Shown here: positions 4,208 through 34,364 of the stretch, one piece after another
How the letters are laid out: every line of letters begins with the position of its first letter
Numbering within the stretch: position 1 is the stretch's first letter
Assembly: GCA_016209085.1 (NCBI GenBank)
Contig: JACQWV010000044.1
Location: 1-35,323 of the forward strand
DNA: 35,323 nucleotides
Direction: 5' to 3'
Source of the DNA: Elusimicrobiota bacterium
Lineage (GTDB): Bacteria > Elusimicrobiota > Elusimicrobia > Elusimicrobiales > UBA9959
Translations under genes and position numbers: made by a program
The notes under the pieces: model-generated
The model's input: the letters and a program-made list of their open reading frames with translations, nothing else
Database searches by the model: none
What the model was told of the DNA's origin: nothing

Positions 4208-4915
4208 TTATGTTTCATTTTCTTTGAGTGTTTTTACTGAGCTCAGTAAATACGGCGCGATTTTCCGCAGGGCATCCGCCCTGTGGCTTATTGAATTTTT
4301 CTGCTTTAAAGACATCTGAGCGAGCGTTTTTTTAAACCCGTCAGGCATGAAAACCGGGTCGTATCCGAAACCGTTTTGCCCTGCAGGTTTTAAGGTTATC
4401 TTCCCTTGAAGAATTCCCTGAACGGCCACAGCCCGTCCAGCCGGGGAAACAAGCGCAATGACACATTTAAAAACGGCTTTTCTTGAACCGATATCCGCAT
4501 TCGCAAGCTGTTTTAAAAGTTTTCTGCAGTTATCTTCATAGGAACACCCCGGCCCGGCGTATCTGGCTGAGAATACCCCGGGCCTGCCGTTAAGATATTC
4601 AACTTCAAGTCCCGTATCGTCCGCAAGCGCCCAGCAGCCTGTCACACGCGAAACCATTCCGGCTTTCTTGAGAGCGTTCGCTTTAAGCGTTTTGCCGTCC
4701 TCTCTGATTTCAGGAATGCCTTCAAAATCAGTCAGCATTTTAAAATTCAGCTTCACCCCGTTAGAAATCCGCCCTGCCCGAAGGGCATGGCGGCAGCCCC
4801 GCCTATGGCGGGACTTATTTCTAACGGGGCAAGACCCGGAAAGAATAGCCAGCATTTCCTTCATTTTATTTTTATTTCTTGTGGCGATAACAACCGTTTT
4901 ACTCTTGACAATCAT
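4208..4915 (-). CDS. rdgB: RdgB/HAM1 family dITP/XTP pyrophosphatase with in-frame element insertion
   Basis: 235 residues; the family is usually about 190-205. It hydrolyses dITP, ITP and XTP to monophosphates, keeping deaminated purines out of DNA and RNA. Family signatures are present: A-T-R-N-K-N-K near residue 11, E-D-G-K-T-L-K-A-N-A-L, A-D-D-T-G-L-E-V, P-G-V-F-S-A-R-Y-A-G, G-F-G-Y-D-P-V-F and S-H-R-A-D-A-L. The excess length is a block of about 26 residues (P-V-R-N-K-S-R-H ... R-I-S-N-G-V) after residue 29, between the first helix and the next strand; it is exactly the translation of the 74-bp palindromic element at 4756-4829. Core motifs are untouched, so the enzyme may still work with an arginine-rich surface loop. 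The ATG at 4915 fits the family start (V-V-I-A-T-R-N). Confidence 0.93.
   Translation of the reverse strand: MIVKSKTVVIATRNKNKMKEMLAILSGSCPVRNKSRHRRGCRHALRAGRISNGVKLNFKMLTDFEGIPEIREDGKTLKANALKKAGMVSRVTGCWALADDTGLEVEYLNGRPGVFSARYAGPGCSYEDNCRKLLKQLANADIGSRKAVFKCVIALVSPAGRAVAVQGILQGKITLKPAGQNGFGYDPVFMPDGFKKTLAQMSLKQKNSISHRADALRKIAPYLLSSVKTLKENET
4756..4829. mobile_element. 74-bp palindromic MITE-like element, copy 1 (inside rdgB)
   Basis: Terminal inverted repeats CCCCGTTAGAAAT / ATTTCTAACGGGG (13 bp, perfect) enclose two GC-rich hairpins. It lies in opposite orientation to copies 2 and 3 and differs from their complement at two positions. It is in frame in rdgB and contains no stop codon in that frame. 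I do not see a matching target duplication at this copy (flanks TTCA and CAAG). Confidence 0.88.
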
Positions 4916-7237: not shown

Positions 7238-7238
7238 G

Positions 7239-7312
7239 CCCCGTTAGAAATAAGCCCCGCCATAGGCGGGGCTGCCGCCGTGCCCTTCGGGCAGGGCGGA
7301 TTTCTAACGGGG
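7239..7312. mobile_element. 74-bp palindromic MITE-like element, copy 2 (intergenic)
   Basis: Identical to copy 3. It is flanked by a direct repeat TAAG (7235-7238 and 7313-7316), a likely 4-bp target-site duplication; the left TAAG contains the stop codon of the upstream TPR gene, so insertion occurred at the stop and recreated it. It lies between the TPR gene and the clostripain gene and could act as a transcript-end hairpin. Confidence 0.9.
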
Positions 7313-7351
7313 TAAGTTGATTTTACTCAACAATTTTACTAAAGTAATCTT

Positions 7352-12438: not shown

Positions 12439-13635
12439 TTAAAGCCAGGAGCGAAACAAGTAAAGGAATTTACTCGCCAATTTCAGAAGGAGTCTTCTGT
12501 TTTTGCAGTCCTGAAGACTGACTTGCCTTGAATTCTTTAAATCATTCTTAAAAGCTTCCTCCATGCAACCTGCAAATTTTTCGTCAAAAATGTTGGCGTT
12601 CAGCTCCATATTGTAATGCAGGCTTCTATGGTCAAGATTATGACTGCCTACTGACGACCATATCCCGTCAATTACGGCTGTTTTGGAATGAAGCGCCTCC
12701 CCCTGCCATTCGAAAATTTTGATGCCGTTTTTTATCATGTGCGGAAACATTGACCATGACGCCCATTTTACAAAAGGATGGTCGGTCTGTCCCGGGACGA
12801 TTATTGCCACTTCTACCCTTCTTTTCACGGCCTTTATGAGTCTTCTGTAAACCACCCTGTCCGGAAGAAAGTAAGCGTTTGTTATGCGTATGTATCGTTT
12901 TGCCCTGTCTATGGCGTATTTATAGGTTCTTCTTATAGACCTGACATTTCTTATCCCGGAAGCGGCTACTATTGCAAGATAAACCCCGTTAGAAATTTGA
13001 CAGATGCCGGAACCATTCGTAGTCTCTGAAGCGGGTTCAAACCGAAGCGCAGGCGCAGGCGAAAGAAAACCGGCTGTCTGATGATTTTTTGCGGAATGCC
13101 ATGTTTCCCAGAACAGGCCGGCAAGTTCTTTAACCGCTGATTCTCCTTCAATCTTCACCTGGCTGTCTTTCCAGCCTCTCCCTCCCATGCTCACGGGAGC
13201 GTCATATTCGCTTATGTTGAATCCGCCGACAAACGCGGTATGTCCATCTATGCACAAGAGCTTTCTATGGTCTCTTTTAAACCAGTTCCAGTGCGGCTTC
13301 CACGGGACAAGAGGATGAAATTCCAGCACATTTACCCCCTCCTTCTCCATGTCCGAAAAAAAATCCCTGCTTGTGAGGATTGAGCCTATGGCGTCGTATA
13401 TTAAAAACACCTCTGCTCCCTCTTTTGACTTTTGAATCAGAAGTTCTTTAAAAAGCCTGCCTATGGAATCATCTATGAAAGAATAGACTTCCAGCAATAT
13501 TTCCCTTTCAGCCCGTTTTATAGCGTCAATCATTTCGGGAAATGCTTCATCCCCGTTTTGAAGCAGTACTGCTCTGGCGCATTTAATAACGCTATCGGGC
13601 TTTAAACAGTAATCCAGCCAATTTACTTGCCCCAT
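12439..13635 (-). CDS. Phospholipase D / cardiolipin synthase-like protein
   Basis: 398 residues with two HKD motifs: H-R-K-L-L-C-I-D-G followed by G-G-F-N-I-S, and H-S-K-T-A-V-I-D-G followed by G-S-H-N-L-D-H-R-S. The second half has R-I-T-N-A-Y-F-L-P-D, typical of bacterial cardiolipin synthases. There are no N-terminal membrane helices, so it resembles the soluble ClsB class, which condenses phosphatidylglycerol molecules or uses other phosphatidyl donors. The ATG at 13635 shares its A with the TGA of the upstream ligase gene (TGATG), indicating coupling; a GTG one codon upstream is also open. Between the two halves, I-S-N-G-V is encoded by a 13-base match to the terminal repeat of the 74-bp element (12984-12996), possibly a scar. 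Confidence 0.9.
   Translation of the reverse strand: MGQVNWLDYCLKPDSVIKCARAVLLQNGDEAFPEMIDAIKRAEREILLEVYSFIDDSIGRLFKELLIQKSKEGAEVFLIYDAIGSILTSRDFFSDMEKEGVNVLEFHPLVPWKPHWNWFKRDHRKLLCIDGHTAFVGGFNISEYDAPVSMGGRGWKDSQVKIEGESAVKELAGLFWETWHSAKNHQTAGFLSPAPALRFEPASETTNGSGICQISNGVYLAIVAASGIRNVRSIRRTYKYAIDRAKRYIRITNAYFLPDRVVYRRLIKAVKRRVEVAIIVPGQTDHPFVKWASWSMFPHMIKNGIKIFEWQGEALHSKTAVIDGIWSSVGSHNLDHRSLHYNMELNANIFDEKFAGCMEEAFKNDLKNSRQVSLQDCKNRRLLLKLASKFLYLFRSWL
12984..12996. repeat. Solo 13-bp terminus matching the 74-bp element
   Basis: CCCCGTTAGAAAT is identical to the terminal inverted repeat of the 74-bp element, without the rest. It may be a remnant left by an internal deletion, or chance; it lies in a weakly conserved linker of the phospholipase D gene. 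Confidence 0.35.
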
Positions 13636-15536
13636 CACTTCTCCTGCTGCTTTTTTTCAATTTCCGCCTTTATTTTAGCGTACTGGACATCATCAAATCT
13701 TAAAAGCATTTTATCATAATTGCTCAGTCCGTATTTAACGGAAGTTTCCCGGCTGTTCCGGCCGTTCGCAGCGCTCTCGGCACCGATTGCGGACAATGCC
13801 GCCCTGTTCCGGATAAAATCAATCTCCTTTGCGGCGCTACGGACGTTTCCTTTTTTTAAAAATATCTTTGCCAGATGAAGCCTTGCCTGCAGAAAATTCG
13901 GCTCAACTGCAACGGCGTCCAGAACGCTCCTCGCGGCATTATCCAGATCGCCGGTTTCAAAATATATGTTTGATTCAATCAATTTAAGCGGTGCGGACTT
14001 CGGCATCTGTTTCTGAATCTTTCTCACGAACGCCAGGACGCGGGCAAGATTCGTTTTTTCGCCGTTTAAAAGTTCCATTTTTATTTTTTCAGAGATAACA
14101 TCGGCGTCATCAGGAAATAAATTTAAAGCTTTGTCCACGCATCCCGCCTTCTGCGACGACAGGCACTGCCGGTAATTTTCGTATTTAAATTTTGCCGCAT
14201 TCCCCGCAAGGATAAAAAAAACGGCGATAAGCGCCCTGACCCTGCTCATACTCTGCCCTTCGTCTTTCTCCGTTTCCCCCCGCCTTTCCAGACAATAACC
14301 GAGAGTTCCCCAGAAAATCATGCTGATGCTTCCGAGATAAAAAATAACGTCAAAACATGCCTGGGAAAAAAGAGCTATCGCGACTATTTTCAGGGAATCC
14401 GTTCGCCGGCCGTTCGCAGCGCTCTCGGCACCGATTGCGGACAATGCCGCCCTGTTCCGGCCGTTCGCAGCGCTCTCGGCACCGATTGCGGACAATGCCG
14501 CCCTGTTCCGGCCGTTCGCAGCGCTCTCGGCACCGATTGCGGACAATGCCGCCCTGTTCCGGCCCGATGCCCTGAGAATTTGAGCAAACGCAAAGAGGAA
14601 CAAAACAGCCGCCGGCAGACCGGCCTCCGACGATAAATTTAAAATTTCGCTGTGAGCATGATGAGTATGGTGGCCGTAATAAGAAACGCCGTTAAAGGCC
14701 GGAAATTTAAACATCAAAAAAGCCTTTTCAAAACAACCCGGCCCTATTCCGAAAAACGGATATTCTTTTGTTGTTTCAAGAGCCGTATTCCATATGTTCA
14801 GTCTCTGAAAAGAGTTGACATCCCCGGTTTTTAACGCGATGTTCAGAATATTCTCCGGAATAAGAGCCAATAACAAAATGCCAAAAACGGCAAAGCCGAA
14901 CAATCCAAAATATTTTTTTTCATAGAGAAAAAAAACGAATAATGCCAGCGCAAGAGCGGCATAAGCTCCTCTTGAATTTATAAGCACAAGCGTAGCAACC
15001 AGAAACAGCGTTAGAGCTGACGCAAAAACTTTTAGTTTCAACGAACCATTTTTAAAAGAAACCGGCAACAAAAAGCACAAACCAGAGACGATTACCGCCG
15101 CCGTGTAGTTCGGATTCGGATAGAGAAATCCTGTCAGGGGTTTTCCTAAAAGGAACTGCAGCCATACCATGAATGCCGAGACAAAACCCGCTGAAACCAA
15201 AACCGCTTTCCAGGCAAAAACCGAATTTTTATTGCCGGATTGATTTGAGGCAATCGCAAAAAAAAGCGCGTACATAAGATATCTGCCGAATTGCCCGAAG
15301 CTGTTTAAAATGTCGACTGAAAAAACCGAAGCTGCCAAAAGCCAGACAAGGAAAAACAGCCATGGCCCGGAATCGCAGAATTTTATTTTGTTTTTAAAGA
15401 ATACGACATAAAGGGAAAATAAGATTGAAAAAAGAAACCAGGATTGAGAAGTTCTCAGCCCGCCGAGAAACATAGAGAGGCACAGGAAAAAAGGCAGACC
15501 GTAAGGTTCCGCTTTTTCTGAAAATGTTTTTACCAT
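13635..15536 (-). CDS. Wzy_C / O-antigen ligase-like membrane protein with C-terminal TPR and inserted 17-residue repeats
   Basis: 633 residues. About ten to twelve membrane helices fill residues 10-440, with the Wzy_C signature loop G-I-G-P-G-C-F-E and H-T-H-H-A-H-S-E-I-L-N-L-S-S-E-A-G near the middle. The last 200 residues are TPR-like. Proteins of this family transfer or polymerise undecaprenyl-linked glycans on lipid A, on pilin or on other proteins. The loop after the Wzy_C motif holds three perfect tandem 17-residue units (G-R-N-R-A-A-L-S-A-I-G-A-E-S-A-A-N) and a fourth lies near the C-terminus; all are translations of a 51-bp DNA repeat. The start overlaps the previous ligase gene by seven bases, and the stop overlaps the phospholipase D start. 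Position behind pilM-Q suggests pilin glycosylation, which is inference. Confidence 0.85.
   Translation of the reverse strand: MVKTFSEKAEPYGLPFFLCLSMFLGGLRTSQSWFLFSILFSLYVVFFKNKIKFCDSGPWLFFLVWLLAASVFSVDILNSFGQFGRYLMYALFFAIASNQSGNKNSVFAWKAVLVSAGFVSAFMVWLQFLLGKPLTGFLYPNPNYTAAVIVSGLCFLLPVSFKNGSLKLKVFASALTLFLVATLVLINSRGAYAALALALFVFFLYEKKYFGLFGFAVFGILLLALIPENILNIALKTGDVNSFQRLNIWNTALETTKEYPFFGIGPGCFEKAFLMFKFPAFNGVSYYGHHTHHAHSEILNLSSEAGLPAAVLFLFAFAQILRASGRNRAALSAIGAESAANGRNRAALSAIGAESAANGRNRAALSAIGAESAANGRRTDSLKIVAIALFSQACFDVIFYLGSISMIFWGTLGYCLERRGETEKDEGQSMSRVRALIAVFFILAGNAAKFKYENYRQCLSSQKAGCVDKALNLFPDDADVISEKIKMELLNGEKTNLARVLAFVRKIQKQMPKSAPLKLIESNIYFETGDLDNAARSVLDAVAVEPNFLQARLHLAKIFLKKGNVRSAAKEIDFIRNRAALSAIGAESAANGRNSRETSVKYGLSNYDKMLLRFDDVQYAKIKAEIEKKQQEK
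13760..13810. repeat. 51-bp element, single copy in the ligase C-terminal region
   Basis: Identical to the units at 14408-14560. It encodes G-R-N-R-A-A-L-S-A-I-G-A-E-S-A-A-N-type sequence in frame near the end of the TPR region. The flank repeats the unit's own edge (TGTTCC at 13754-13759). Confidence 0.88.
14408..14560. repeat. Three perfect tandem 51-bp elements inside the ligase gene
   Basis: Units 14408-14458, 14459-14509 and 14510-14560 are identical. Each begins GGCCGTTCGCAGCGC and ends CCGCCCTGTTCC on the plus strand, and is 17 codons long, so the frame is kept whatever the copy number. On the coding strand they lie between two membrane helices. Identity between units suggests recent amplification. 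Confidence 0.95.
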
Positions 15537-17128
15537 TTGAAAATTTTTGACCTTCTCTCCAGAAGAGCTGTTTTCAACTCCTGTTCTCCATTGGTTTCGT
15601 ATATCAGTTTGAGCTTGAAATAGGCTGAGGAATCATAGGGATTCAGAAGCAGAAGCCTTTCAAAGCAGACGGCCGATTCAAAAAACAAACGTCTGTCCTT
15701 TGCGCTTTGCGCCATGTCAAGATAAACATCGCCGAGAAAATTTAACGCAAGCGGGGATTCTCCGGCTGAATCTACGGCCTGGATCTTCTGCAAAACGCAT
15801 TCTACGTCTCCTGTTTGACTACCGCATTCTGCGGAGCCCCGCCAGAGGCGGTGGCGGCATTTTGACGCAGACTCAAGCGCCAGAGAAGCCCTGAATTCCT
15901 TTACTGAAAAACTGATAAACGCAAGCATTAAACAAAAGATTACAAAAACCGCCGGCATAACCTTAACAACCCCGCGGGTTAGCAAAATCCTCATTGGGGA
16001 AAAATTGCTAACCCGCGGGGTTGGAATGGGTTCAGGCACTATTATGTAGCAGAAAACCCAGAAAATGCCGGGCAGCGCCAGACCGAAATCAACAACAGAG
16101 TGAAAAAGAGCGGCCAGGATAGAGTATTTTCTCCAGCCCTCTATCTGCCTGAAACGGCTAAACAGAAAAAAGAGCCATACTGCAAAAGCAGGGAATCCGT
16201 TCTCGGAAAGAAATTCTAGAAAGTAGTTATGAACGTAAATTGACGAGGTCCCCCATTGAACCGGCGCGTGATACGCGGGATATATGTATAAAAAACTCCC
16301 TGTTCCGAAACCGGCAACAGGCCTGTCAAGCGCCATTTTAAAAGCCGATTTCCACCATATTATTCTGTCATAAACTGATTTTAAATCAAAACCGGCTGAA
16401 AAATAAGCAAACAGAATCAGAATAGCTGATAAGAGCAAAATCCATTTTCTTCCTTTTCCTGAATTTTTTACCCCGTTAGAAATAAGCCCCGCCATAGGCG
16501 GGGCTGCCGCCGTGCCCTTCGGGCAGGGCGGATTTCTAACGGGGTTTACAGAGAAAACCCAAAGAACAGCCGCCAGGCTCAAAAAACCGGCTGCAGAACC
16601 CGTAAAAACCAAATTAAAGGCAAGGAGTAAAATAAGCGGGTAATCTTTTATTGAAACGGCAAAAGGAATCATCATTAAAATGAAAAGAGCGAACGCATTC
16701 GAGTTGAGAAAAGAAGAATAGAGCGCCTCTTCGGCCAGGGCGAACTTCTGATACGCGCCGAGGCAGGCTGCGAACCATGCGCAGACGCGCAGACAGATTT
16801 TAAAATATTTTTCAGAGCCCTTGTCAGCGTTTAATGCGATATAAAATACGGCAATCCCGATTGAAAAATTAATAAGGTCATGGTAGATAAGGGTTTTAAC
16901 CGGAGACAGCAGAAAAGACAAAAACGCCAAAAACAAAACGCAGATAGGCGGTATATTTTCCCTGGAAATTACAAAGGGCGCGGCAGTATGCGCAAGAATT
17001 GAGCGGACAAGCAGGAAACTGAAAAATAAAAAAAACAGAACTGAAACGGCAAATTGAATTTTAAAATTCCAGATTCCCTGAAGCAAAGGCGCAAACAGTA
17101 AAACCGAACACAACAAAAACTTAAGCAT
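15530..17128 (-). CDS. Wzy_C / O-antigen ligase-like membrane protein carrying three palindromic insertions
   Basis: 532 residues with about eleven membrane helices and the Wzy_C loop around G-F-G-T-G-S-F-L-Y-I-Y-P and S-S-I-Y-V-H-N-Y-F-L-E-F-L-S-E-N-G-F-P. A short TPR-like tail ends the protein. It is a paralogue of the next gene downstream and is separated from pilQ by three bases. Three unrelated palindromic elements are translated in frame: the 74-bp element at 16471-16544 (P-V-R-N-P-P-C-P-K ... I-S-N-G-V, in a loop between helices), the REPIN-like palindrome at 15968-16022 (T-P-R-V-S-N ... T-R-G-V, just before the last helix) and a GC-rich double hairpin at 15822-15863 (C-R-H-R-L-W-R-G-S-A-E-C-G) at the start of the TPR tail. 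All fall in loops or linkers, so activity may survive. Substrate unknown; pilin or lipid A glycan is likely. Confidence 0.85.
   Translation of the reverse strand: MLKFLLCSVLLFAPLLQGIWNFKIQFAVSVLFFLFFSFLLVRSILAHTAAPFVISRENIPPICVLFLAFLSFLLSPVKTLIYHDLINFSIGIAVFYIALNADKGSEKYFKICLRVCAWFAACLGAYQKFALAEEALYSSFLNSNAFALFILMMIPFAVSIKDYPLILLLAFNLVFTGSAAGFLSLAAVLWVFSVNPVRNPPCPKGTAAAPPMAGLISNGVKNSGKGRKWILLLSAILILFAYFSAGFDLKSVYDRIIWWKSAFKMALDRPVAGFGTGSFLYIYPAYHAPVQWGTSSIYVHNYFLEFLSENGFPAFAVWLFFLFSRFRQIEGWRKYSILAALFHSVVDFGLALPGIFWVFCYIIVPEPIPTPRVSNFSPMRILLTRGVVKVMPAVFVIFCLMLAFISFSVKEFRASLALESASKCRHRLWRGSAECGSQTGDVECVLQKIQAVDSAGESPLALNFLGDVYLDMAQSAKDRRLFFESAVCFERLLLLNPYDSSAYFKLKLIYETNGEQELKTALLERRSKIFKW
15822..15863. 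repeat. GC-rich double-hairpin element inside the ligase gene
   Basis: CCGCA-TTC-TGCGG (15822-15834) is followed by CCGCC-AGA-GGCGG (15839-15851). The pair encodes C-R-H-R-L-W-R-G-S-A-E-C-G in frame at the junction of the membrane and TPR parts. The style resembles the inner hairpins of the 74-bp element, but the sequence differs. Confidence 0.55.
15968..16022. mobile_element. REPIN-like double palindrome inside the ligase gene
   Basis: Arms AACCCCGCGGGTTAGCAA (15968-15985) and its exact complement (16005-16022) enclose ATTGGGG-containing spacer. The same arrangement, with the same core and ATTGGGG spacer, occurs at 31097-31153 beside the RAYT transposase gene, which suggests it is mobilised by that enzyme family. 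It is translated without a stop. Confidence 0.8.
16471..16544. mobile_element. 74-bp palindromic MITE-like element, copy 3 (inside ligase gene)
   Basis: Identical to copy 2. Direct repeat TTTA flanks it (16467-16470 and 16545-16548), a likely 4-bp target duplication. 74 plus 4 is 78 bases, or 26 codons, so the insertion keeps the reading frame. It is read in the opposite sense from the copy in rdgB and is open in both. Confidence 0.92.
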
Positions 17129-31096: not shown

Positions 31097-31153
31097 TAAC
31101 CCCGCGGGTTAGCAGAATCTCTATTGGGGCATTTTTTCCAACCCGCGGGGTTA
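31097..31153. mobile_element. REPIN-like double palindrome on the downstream side of the RAYT gene
   Basis: TAACCCCGCGGGTT (31097-31110) and AACCCGCGGGGTTA (31140-31153) are exact complements around a spacer containing ATTGGGG. It is the close relative of the element at 15968-16022. Confidence 0.82.
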
Positions 31154-31159
31154 AAAAGG

Positions 31160-31789
31160 TTATTCACAAATCAGTTCCTTTATTTTGGCAAGTTCTCGCT
31201 GATATGAAATTCTGTCTTCAACAAATTCTTTATATTTGTCCGGCTTTACCACCAAAATATCAGAATAACTGCAAATTTTTTTATCAGAGACATTTAAATA
31301 TTCTCTATAAGACGAATATCTCCAATCCCCTGGCTTGTCCACTAAATAAGCCGTAACGGGATTTAAATGAATATACCTTGTTAAATGCAAAATCTGTTCG
31401 TCAGTTTTTACTAAAACATTTCTAAATCTGCCTTCCCATAAAGGGCCTTTCCTATTATGTTTAAGATTAAAATATTTCGCATAGCTATTTGAAAGATTGC
31501 TTATAAACCTTACTATCCCATTTTCTTCAAGTTGCTTAAGCACTAAATGAAAATGTGTTGGCATAAAACAATAAGATACTATCTTTACATATTTTCCATC
31601 AGAATGATTAATTGTTTTTTCTTTTGACTTTAAAAATGAGGAAAAACTTCCCTTTCTATCGGTTGTGTAATAATTTACTGCATATAGAAATCTATCGTAG
31701 TCATCGTCACTATTAAAAATTTTATATGAAGCAATACTTTTGTTAAATACATGATATATTTCATCCGATACCAATTTCTCTTTTCTCAT
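31160..31789 (-). CDS. REP-associated tyrosine transposase (RAYT, Y1/IS200-like)
   Basis: 209 residues from the chosen start M-R-K-E-K-L-V-S-D-E-I-Y-H-V-F-N, which is typical of the family; ATG 31801 and TTG 31804 further upstream fall in the flanking palindrome. The HUH motif is in F-M-P-T-H-F-H-L-V-L-K and the nucleophile tyrosine region is N-S-Y-A-K-Y-F-N-L-K-H-N-R-K-G-P-L-W-E-G-R-F, followed by H-L-N-P-V. RAYTs nick single-stranded DNA at REP hairpins. The gene is intact, flanked on both sides by double palindromes, and inserted six bases after the stop codon of the Ser/Thr kinase gene. Its base composition is more A/T-rich than its neighbours, suggesting separate ancestry. Confidence 0.93.
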   Translation of the reverse strand: MRKEKLVSDEIYHVFNKSIASYKIFNSDDDYDRFLYAVNYYTTDRKGSFSSFLKSKEKTINHSDGKYVKIVSYCFMPTHFHLVLKQLEENGIVRFISNLSNSYAKYFNLKHNRKGPLWEGRFRNVLVKTDEQILHLTRYIHLNPVTAYLVDKPGDWRYSSYREYLNVSDKKICSYSDILVVKPDKYKEFVEDRISYQRELAKIKELICE

Positions 31790-31800
31790 ATTAACCACCA

Positions 31801-31860
31801 TCAACCTCGTAGGTTGAATATAATTTACATTATACCAAAATTTTCAACCTACGAGGTTGA
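31801..31860. mobile_element. REPIN-like double palindrome on the upstream side of the RAYT gene
   Basis: TCAACCTCGTAGGTTGAA (31801-31818) and TTCAACCTACGAGGTTGA (31843-31860) are exact complements. The core AACC-T-CG-TA-GGTT aligns with AACC-C-CG-CG-GGTT of the downstream element, so the two flanks are diverged relatives. Confidence 0.82.
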
Positions 31861-31865
31861 AAAGG

Positions 31866-34364
31866 TTAGGTTATTTTCATGAGGGCAAAGCGGAATTCTT
31901 CAACCTTTTTGTATCTCTTGTCAAGGTCGGGGTCAAGAGCTTTGTCTATCACCGCGTCAACTTCTTCCGAAATTCCGTCAACCATGGACGAAACAGGATA
32001 GTAAATTTTATTCGCTTTCTGATAGTGATAGTCGGGGCCTTTGAAAGGCAAATCGCCGGTCAAAACCTCGTAGAGGCACACGCCGAGGGAAAATACGTCG
32101 CTCTGTTTATAGAAAATTCCGACTTCCTGTTCCGGCGCCATGTAAGCGGGACTGCCGATAACTTCTTTGCTTGAAAACCTGGCTGTCGGAACAGGGCGGC
32201 ATTGCCCGCTGTCGGTGCCGCAAGCGCTGCGCGCGGCCGAGTCCTTGGCGTGGCGAGCCAGCCCGAAATCCATAACCTTGACGAAACCGTCAGCCGATAT
32301 CATTATGTTGGAGAGCTTGAGGTCCCTGTGCACTATGTTTTTTGAGTGGGCGTAGGAAAGCGCTTTAGTGATGCCGTCAAAAACCCCTTTTGCCTTGTAA
32401 AGGGGCATTCTTATTTCTTTGTTCAAAAGCCTCTCAAGAGACTGCCCGTCCACATATTCAAACACCAGATATATGTTGCCGTCTTCCTCAAAAATGGTGT
32501 AAATCTCCACGATGTTCGGATGATGAAGCATGGCGACGGTGCGCGCCTCCTGAAGAAATCTTTGTTTTTCGCCGTCGTTTATTTTTATTTCTTCGTTCAT
32601 TTTCTTTATCGCCGTTTTTCTGTCAAGAGACTGGTCAACCGCCTCATACACCACGCCCATTCCCCCTTCTCCCAGCTTCTTTTCTATCCTGTACTTGCCG
32701 GACGCGACGCCTTCGTAAAACACGGACGGCGCAAGGATATCAGGCTGGGTGTCTTTTCCTTTTCTGCCGGCGCGGACAGACATCATGGAAGAAGAAAAAA
32801 TGTGCAGGAATCCGAGAGCGATCAATACGCCGCCTGCAATGGTGAAAATCAAAAGCACCAGAAATCTTTTGAGCCCGTTGGGTTTGGAAGATTCCTGCCT
32901 GGCTCCTTTATCCTGAGGGCTGTTTCCGACAATTTTTGCGGGATAATTAAAATTTGCGGCCTTGTGAGAGTACTGAGCGACCGCATCGTTGAATTTCCGG
33001 CCGTAAGTAGAGTTCAGCAGAGCGGCTTGTTTAAAATCCTCCAGCATCCGGTCGTAACTTCCCATTTTCTCGCGGGCCAGACCCCTTATAAACCACGCGT
33101 CCGCAAAATTGGGATTAAGATTTATCGCTTTCGTGGCGTTTGTTTCAGCCTCTTTGAAAAGGCCCTTTTTATTAAGCGCCCAGCTGCGTATATTCAGCGC
33201 GTTCAGGTTTGAGGGATTGGATTCAAGCGCCAGAGTTGCGTCTCTTACGGCGTCGTCGTATTTTCCAAGGTAATTATTGGCGTTCGCTCTTTCAAGATAG
33301 GCGTCGATGTTTTCGGGATTTTTTTCAACAGCGAGGGAGGCGTATTTAACGGCGCTTTCATAATCGCCCAGTTTTATTTTTGACGCAGCTGTTTTTAAAT
33401 AAATGTTTGACTTGGCGTAATCTATTCCGTTTTCACCGGGCTGAACCGCCGGGGCGATGCCGGGCATGGCCTGGCCTCCGACAACGGCTCCCTCCTCGTC
33501 GTACGCGGGCCCTTCAAAAAACTTTTTTACTTCCTGCGCCGATGAAAGGTTCTTTAACGAAGGTATTTTTCGTTTGCTTTCTATAAGAGCGGAAAGTATT
33601 TTTGAAGATTCGTCCTGGGGATCAATCTCCATCGCTTTCTTTATGTCGTTGATCGCGCCGTTTCTGTCTTCAAGGTTTACTCTTGCCACTGCCCTGGTTT
33701 TGTACGCGTCCGCGTTTTTGGGGTTCAGTTCTATGGCCGAGGTGGCGGATCTTTCCGCAAGGGCGAAATTCTGCATTTCATTGTAATATTCGGCCGCAGC
33801 CGTATGAACGGACGAGTTTTTGGGATACTCCTGAACAAGCGTTTCAATTTTCTTTTCAACTTCCTGCTTCTTTCCCTCGTTTATATCCCTCCGTATTTCC
33901 ATAACCTTGTGCAGGGGCCCCGCCACATGGCGGGGCGGCTCCTGTCCGCCCACCCCGGTTCCCTGTCCACTGTCCGCTGTTTTATTGTCCCTGCGGTGAA
34001 CGCCCCGCAGAGGGACTATCCCGAACGGAGCAAGCCAGCCGATTATTTCCCTGTCATCATCTACGCTCTCGTTAAGTCTGTACATCATTTCCGCAATTCT
34101 GTTCAATTGATCCTGAATAAAAACGTCGGCGTCTTTTTTGTCAAGTTTTACCAGAATGCGGACAAGGCTTCTTGCCGACGTCTCGGGATTATCTATTATG
34201 TTGAATCTGAATATCGCAAAATCATCCCCGCCGGTTTGGCCGTCTGATTCAACGGATTTTATTTCAACTATGGTCAGAGAGGAGACAACCGGGCTTGCGG
34301 AAATCTCGGCCCGTAAACCGGCGGCCGGCGCCAATATCAAAAAGAGAATGAGTGAAAATGCCAT
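31866..34364 (-). CDS. Transmembrane Ser/Thr protein kinase with extracytoplasmic TPR sensor
   Basis: 832 residues. Signal peptide at about 1-19, an N-terminal domain to about 120, TPR repeats from about 150 to 480 in two blocks, one membrane helix near 510-530 (F-L-V-L-L-I-F-T-I-A-G-G-V-L-I-A-L-G-F) and a Hanks-type kinase at about 565-832. Kinase motifs are intact: G-E-G-G-M-G-V-V-Y, A-I-K-K-M, V-H-R-D-L-K-L-S-N-I, D-F-G-L-A-R, G-S-P-A-Y-M-A-P-E. Between DFG and APE about 17 extra residues (R-S-A-C-G-T-D-S-G-Q-C-R-P-V-P) come from the 51-bp element. A second palindromic patch near 33918-34010 is translated ahead of the TPR region. The order (sensor first, kinase last) is the reverse of PknB-type kinases. 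The lipoprotein downstream is a possible partner. Confidence 0.92.
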   Translation of the reverse strand: MAFSLILFLILAPAAGLRAEISASPVVSSLTIVEIKSVESDGQTGGDDFAIFRFNIIDNPETSARSLVRILVKLDKKDADVFIQDQLNRIAEMMYRLNESVDDDREIIGWLAPFGIVPLRGVHRRDNKTADSGQGTGVGGQEPPRHVAGPLHKVMEIRRDINEGKKQEVEKKIETLVQEYPKNSSVHTAAAEYYNEMQNFALAERSATSAIELNPKNADAYKTRAVARVNLEDRNGAINDIKKAMEIDPQDESSKILSALIESKRKIPSLKNLSSAQEVKKFFEGPAYDEEGAVVGGQAMPGIAPAVQPGENGIDYAKSNIYLKTAASKIKLGDYESAVKYASLAVEKNPENIDAYLERANANNYLGKYDDAVRDATLALESNPSNLNALNIRSWALNKKGLFKEAETNATKAINLNPNFADAWFIRGLAREKMGSYDRMLEDFKQAALLNSTYGRKFNDAVAQYSHKAANFNYPAKIVGNSPQDKGARQESSKPNGLKRFLVLLIFTIAGGVLIALGFLHIFSSSMMSVRAGRKGKDTQPDILAPSVFYEGVASGKYRIEKKLGEGGMGVVYEAVDQSLDRKTAIKKMNEEIKINDGEKQRFLQEARTVAMLHHPNIVEIYTIFEEDGNIYLVFEYVDGQSLERLLNKEIRMPLYKAKGVFDGITKALSYAHSKNIVHRDLKLSNIMISADGFVKVMDFGLARHAKDSAARSACGTDSGQCRPVPTARFSSKEVIGSPAYMAPEQEVGIFYKQSDVFSLGVCLYEVLTGDLPFKGPDYHYQKANKIYYPVSSMVDGISEEVDAVIDKALDPDLDKRYKKVEEFRFALMKIT
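32188..32238. repeat. 51-bp element in the kinase activation loop
   Basis: GGAACAGGGCGGCATTG at the left edge and GCGGCC at the right match the complement of the ligase 51-bp units over the full 51 positions with some substitutions. It is read here in the opposite orientation from the ligase copies, still 17 codons without a stop. Confidence 0.85.
33918..34010. repeat. Palindromic patch in the N-terminal part of the kinase gene
   Basis: CCCCGCCA-CA-TGGCGGGG (33918-33935) is a perfect hairpin; further on CTGCGG (33991-33996) pairs with CCGCAG (34005-34010). Between them lies CCTGTCC / CCTGTCCACTGTCC wording. The stretch encodes a glycine- and proline-rich linker between the N-terminal domain and the first TPR. 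Confidence 0.5.

Follow-up and report, generated by a model that had tools for sequence, protein, structure and literature searches.

The 17 residues that lengthen the activation segment of a Ser/Thr kinase in an Elusimicrobiota bacterium are, with high probability, encoded by a copy of a mobile element of 51 bp (17 codons). This element is non-autonomous, has two hairpins, is multiplying in this lineage and persists largely inside genes. The kinase gene lies in the window analysed here, the complete stretch of 35,323 nucleotides from contig JACQWV010000044.1 (assembly GCA_016209085.1). The original prediction, that a mobile element had inserted in the activation segment, is supported by dispersed copies of the sequence, by exact empty sites and by covariation within a hairpin.

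The kinase gene (31866..34364, minus strand) is an open reading frame of 832 aa, whose product comprises a probable signal peptide, TPR repeats, a transmembrane helix and a PknB-like kinase domain, the signal peptide and the helix having been assigned by eye. Pfam searches detected Pkinase (E 1.7e-56) plus TPR families, and PknB provides the best solved relatives of the kinase domain (E 1.3e-41). A long orthologue is present in 35 of 37 genomes of the same family. The glycine-rich loop, the AIK lysine and the HRD, DFG and APE motifs are all retained in the translation and in the alignment of orthologues. DFG (32262..32270, minus strand) marks the start of the activation segment, and GSPAYMAPE (32130..32156, minus strand), which comprises the P+1 loop and APE, is intact in the translation and by comparison with orthologues. 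With this set of motifs the protein is predicted to be an active Hanks-type Ser/Thr kinase, and the expectation that no kinase motif had been destroyed holds for HRD, DFG and APE. The kinase domain resembles those of the PknB family of Hanks-type kinases, but the protein differs from these in its TPR-containing N-terminal part and in the 17 residues added to its activation segment. The kinase gene is adjoined by a gene for a Y1 transposase of the REP-associated type (31160-31804), which has palindromes of its own at 31098-31159 and 31811-31865; a similar copy of the downstream palindrome is found at 15968-16029.

The element copy in the kinase (32187..32239, minus strand) is a 53-nt match that encodes AARSACGTDSGQCRPVP (residues 710-726). 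The insert itself is 51 bp at 32187-32237, or up to 32189-32239, since the CG at both the beginning and the end of the element leaves its ends uncertain by 2 bp; the coordinates first proposed, 32188-32238, fall inside this range. The translation at the insert reads DFGLARHAKDS-AARSACGTDSGQCRPVP-TARFSSKEVIGSPAYMAPE, and AARSACGTDSGQC is the predicted protein stretch across the element-encoded residues. It confirms that 17 extra residues, two of them cysteines, have been added in frame between DFG and APE. A repeat search of the window identified 32187-32239 as a 53-nt inverted repeat, 87% complementary, of 13759-13811, 14407-14459, 14458-14510 and 14509-14561. All four of these further copies reside in an O-antigen-ligase-like (Wzy_C) gene with a TPR region (13635..15536, minus strand; identified by Pfam), as a single copy (13759..13811, plus strand) and as three tandem 51-bp copies (14407..14561, plus strand) that are antisense to the gene and read as NRAALSAIGAESAANGR. 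The kinase gene and the ligase-like gene share the minus strand, but the first carries the element in sense and the second in antisense direction, so the segment does match the ligase repeat in opposite orientation, as had been claimed. In a BLAST search of the genome the kinase copy gave E = 5e-12, and the closest genomic copy differs from it at 4 of 53 positions (92% identity); chance similarity is ruled out by this E-value together with the copy number.

Comparison with orthologues, which had been suggested as a check, identifies the segment as an addition. DFG and APE are separated by 27-31 residues, mostly 30, in 39 orthologous sequences (29 from a whole-genome search of relatives, the other 10 taken from public assemblies of Elusimicrobia; about four of the 39 seem to come from a genome that was counted twice), compared with 47 in this kinase; the difference from the common 30-residue loop is exactly 17 residues. 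All 39 are without the segment, so that unrelated loops of the same length do not occur among them and an ancient native loop is ruled out. The kinase loop is short in the four genomes of the sister genus g12, which carry the element elsewhere, and we found no second genome with the kinase insertion. The copy would have entered after the genus separated from its relatives, at a point precisely between DFG and the P+1 loop, so that the flexible activation segment gained 17 residues and the catalytic motifs were left unharmed.

When the whole genome was searched with a pair of tandem units, matches came from about 40 places; a pattern of 17 bases, allowing up to two mismatches, matched 42 times. 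Parsing yielded 39 copies of full length, distributed over about 32 loci. Of these copies 34 are 51 bp long and five belong to a 48-bp sister variant that has both ends in common with the 51-bp form. The copies are dispersed, lie in either orientation and between them occupy all six frames of unrelated genes; at 4 of the 32 loci they form tandem arrays that repeat at exactly 51 bp. Hosts recognised by Pfam include, besides the kinase and the Wzy_C ligase, MutS, UvrA, CysRS, ArgRS, Mur ligase, the biotin ligase BirA, MurI, DapF, PurS, CoaBC, GDPD, PLD, an M23 peptidase, an H+-pyrophosphatase, ComEC and two radical-SAM proteins. In at least a dozen hosts the element is located within or between recognised domains. 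The copies at N-terminal sites (PurS, MurI and an AAA_28 protein) and the one in a short frame on contig C140 may be untranslated. The array in the CoaBC gene (C138:32618-32772) mixes two unit subtypes, with CGGCAG...CTGC and CGGCCG...CGGC stems. A second repeat family of 71-75 bp, CCCCGTTAGAAAT...ATTTCTAACGGGG, is represented in the window at 4755-4832, 7238-7313 and 16468-16545 and has about 26 genomic copies. Among some 20 loci of this family that were parsed, about half or more are in ORFs of >160 aa, where the encoded peptides read PVRNPP...LISNGV or TPLEIS...GGFLTG, and others are intergenic.

Among 341 genomes of the phylum the 51-bp element was detected in five, namely this genome and all four of g12, and it is absent from the other 336. 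The g12 genome G020 has at least 40 copies, with hosts that include pheS, uvrC, pyrC, cysS and rpsK (host names come from our reading of the translated sequences; only cysS was identified by searching with CysRS). In the rpsK gene (ribosomal protein S11; locus L077) a tandem pair of copies lies in an N-terminal extension. The cysS gene provides an empty site at the DNA level within one genus, in that G011 reads GGGGACACCATGCCGCATGGTGTCCCC and G020 has the same site plus 51 bases. In pheS, pyrC and uvrC, 102 bp present in G020 are missing in 3, 2 and 3 aligned relatives of the same genus, respectively. At the protein level, orthologues of ArgRS and GDPD exhibit an exact 17-residue gap, and the gaps in the Mur ligase, BirA, DapF and UvrA alignments are clear but less exact. 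The CysRS insertions of this genome and of G020 are in the same linker in different frames, and hence look independent. UvrA of G013, a member of another genus, has an insertion (L212, L217) containing the second-family peptide PVRNPPSAMRTAAAAPGRLISNGV; as judged from the sequences, this loop, occupied by the 51-bp element in UvrA of the present genome, is an insertion-tolerant hot spot. At four G020 loci (L143, L137, L133 and L073) several 51-bp copies are centred in a GGGGACACCATG/CATGGTGTCCCC palindrome, and a similar palindrome, GGGGACACAATACC, flanks one Y1 transposase gene of G020 (L192).

The consensus folds into two hairpins, and an end-to-end stem is not formed. Stem 1 pairs positions 3-7 with 19-23, plus 10-11 with 15-16. 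In an analysis of 40 distinct copies five of its pairs show compensatory changes (27 cells compared with 6 in shuffles, a value that none of 500 shuffles reached), and this covariation is lost when the partner positions are shifted. Pair 7-19, for example, occurs as C-G, G-C, T-A and T-G. Stem 2 is nearly invariant. In the kinase gene hairpin 1, with the covarying stem (element positions 3-23), occupies 32217..32237 and hairpin 2, GCGG....CCGC (positions 31-44), occupies 32196..32209, both on the minus strand. The element does not qualify as a classical MITE, as it has no terminal inverted repeats and the ambiguity at its ends, at most 2-3 bp (CG/CGG), is not a target-site duplication of the classical, IS-shared kind. 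The left flank leans to GTTC in this genome, and the right flank favours G, C and G at positions 1, 2 and 4. Compared with the tandem junction, which in the element itself is TGTTC/CGGCCG, the flanks in this genome give 3.88 and 3.45 matches out of 8, against 2.3 and 2.0 further out; the flank of the kinase copy, CGACAG, is a poor match. A copy-specific match between end and flank, as in a guide/target system, looked suggestive by eye but was dropped, permutation giving p 0.04-0.12 in three of four tests and 0.6 in the fourth.

These features bear on how the element moves. It may be a REP of the IS200/RAYT type, whose single-stranded form is mobilised by a Y1 tyrosine transposase from another locus of the genome; we regard this as a possibility of some substance, if not a likely one. 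The two subterminal hairpins with a covarying stem, the TTC bias of the left flank and the absence of a long target duplication are consistent with such a mechanism, as are the eight Y1_Tnp genes of the genome, one of which adjoins the kinase. On the other hand, the element ends flank no Y1_Tnp gene, and the GTAG/CGTC tags of the known REP superfamilies are missing at these ends. Apart from the kinase copy itself, no element was found beside the Y1_Tnp genes at eight loci here and three in G020, and none of the eight Y1 genes of this genome was found to be linked to the element. A connection with the transposase gene next to the kinase was rejected because the palindromes differ. Alternatively, no transposase may be involved, the element being a minisatellite unit that has spread through recombination or template switching at sites containing CGG, a reading suggested by the exact 51-bp arrays at 4 of 32 loci and by the resemblance of both flanks to the tandem junction. 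This appears slightly less probable than movement by a Y1 enzyme, and is opposed by the genome-wide dispersal of copies in both orientations and by the compensatory changes in stem 1, which argue for selection on a hairpin that is recognised by something. The data best fit either a single-strand mechanism that recognises the hairpin or insertion of a circular form at sites resembling the junction; in both cases the intermediate would select sites similar to TGTTC/CGGCCG.

A further question is what the insertion does in the kinase. In PknB the activating threonines reside in the corresponding stretch of the activation loop, and a regulatory effect of the insertion is therefore possible; the change in autophosphorylation or substrate choice first proposed would be of this kind. 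The added residues, which include two cysteines and bring further Ser/Thr close to the phosphorylated part of the loop, could have been recruited for kinase regulation, and they lie directly N-terminal to the Ser/Thr-rich ARFSSKEV, which aligns with the activation-loop TQTAAV of PknB. We nevertheless consider such recruitment improbable, given that the element is also present in dozens of unrelated proteins and in six frames, that nothing comparable is seen in any orthologue and that no second genome was found to indicate conservation. The presence of the element at about 32 sites, including core genes such as MutS, UvrA and two tRNA synthetases, and in every frame gives it the appearance of a tolerated passenger. 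We think that the kinase copy, too, is carried along in a flexible loop with mostly neutral effect and is not a designed switch. A structure model built from only 11 sequences has a mean pLDDT of 71.5; the activation segment (162-197), at <50, is its main low-confidence stretch. Prediction is good for most of the fold, and the part of the C-lobe that follows the loop has block means of >=84. In this model the low confidence of the segment would fit a flexible, tolerated loop.

Of 76 full-length copies, 70 are 51 bp long, five are 48 bp and one, which is intergenic and 5' of a membrane-protein gene, is 50 bp. That 75 of the 76 are multiples of three, with an intergenic exception, fits the prediction that ribosomes translate through the element, and makes it very improbable that the element is bypassed in translation or removed from RNA, in spite of the hairpin conserved within coding sequence and the translational bypass of palindromic insertions in yeast mitochondria (cited in PMC6649704). 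All frames are open in 45 of the 76 copies. With a length divisible by three and most copies free of stops in all frames, any orientation or phase should remain translatable as a harmless loop. Six-frame openness was set aside as proof of selection, given that 22% of shuffles of this GC-rich unit are equally open and that the probability of all host frames being open by chance is 0.39. An exclusively intragenic location is likewise not significant where roughly 90% of the sequence is coding (an estimate based on the window), and some copies in G020 are intergenic. It is conceivable, if rather doubtful, that the family is adapted to coding sequence, being 16 or 17 codons long, mostly stop-free in six frames, recognised by its covarying hairpin and inserted through a novel mechanism at sites similar to its own circle or tandem junction, and that it acts as a steady source of new loops in essential enzymes and in signalling kinases.

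The element is most readily compared with the Rickettsia palindromic elements (RPEs) and the protein-coding palindromes of Wolbachia, which are also small hairpin repeats found in frame in many conserved genes and apparently tolerated. RPEs are fused in-frame in protein genes, and a guanylate kinase that carries one stays active (Delihas review, PMC2229807). Like an RPE, the element is inserted in frame in several unrelated conserved genes whose orthologues are without it. In contrast, RPEs are 105-146 bp long with terminal inverted repeats, and the present element, of 51 or 48 bp, has two separate hairpins, is not palindromic from end to end, forms exact tandem amplifications and occurs in a different phylum. 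GTAG and CGTC REPs have been described within genes of several species, among them those for UvrA, DNA ligase and a tRNA synthetase, where they encode 20-30 residues (PMC3733652). These intragenic REPs (in Opitutus terrae, R. conorii and others) are palindromes or dimers of 20-40 bp that share repair and tRNA synthetase hosts with the element, but their families are mostly intergenic and tagged at one end, whereas the element is untagged and, in this genome, largely in genes; GTAG, CTAC and GACG are present in no copy, and CGTC is found in six copies, only internally. REP/RAYT systems similarly combine non-autonomous hairpin repeats with Y1 transposases, which this genome encodes, but there the cognate repeat flanks the transposase gene, unlike the element described here. 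As it has neither the length and end-to-end palindrome of RPEs nor the tags of GTAG/CGTC REPs, the element is a separate, new family of mobile DNA of the RPE and intragenic REP kind; we found no earlier report of such repeats in Elusimicrobiota in the open-access literature. Recent copies and empty sites are numerous enough for studies of site choice by such elements and of the tolerance of proteins to new loops. What an insertion in the activation loop does can be tested cleanly in the kinase, as a natural case, and the differences between species within a genus make mobility of the element testable. Protein-inserting mobile DNA, best known in the obligate intracellular Rickettsia, is thereby extended to a lineage of the Elusimicrobiota.
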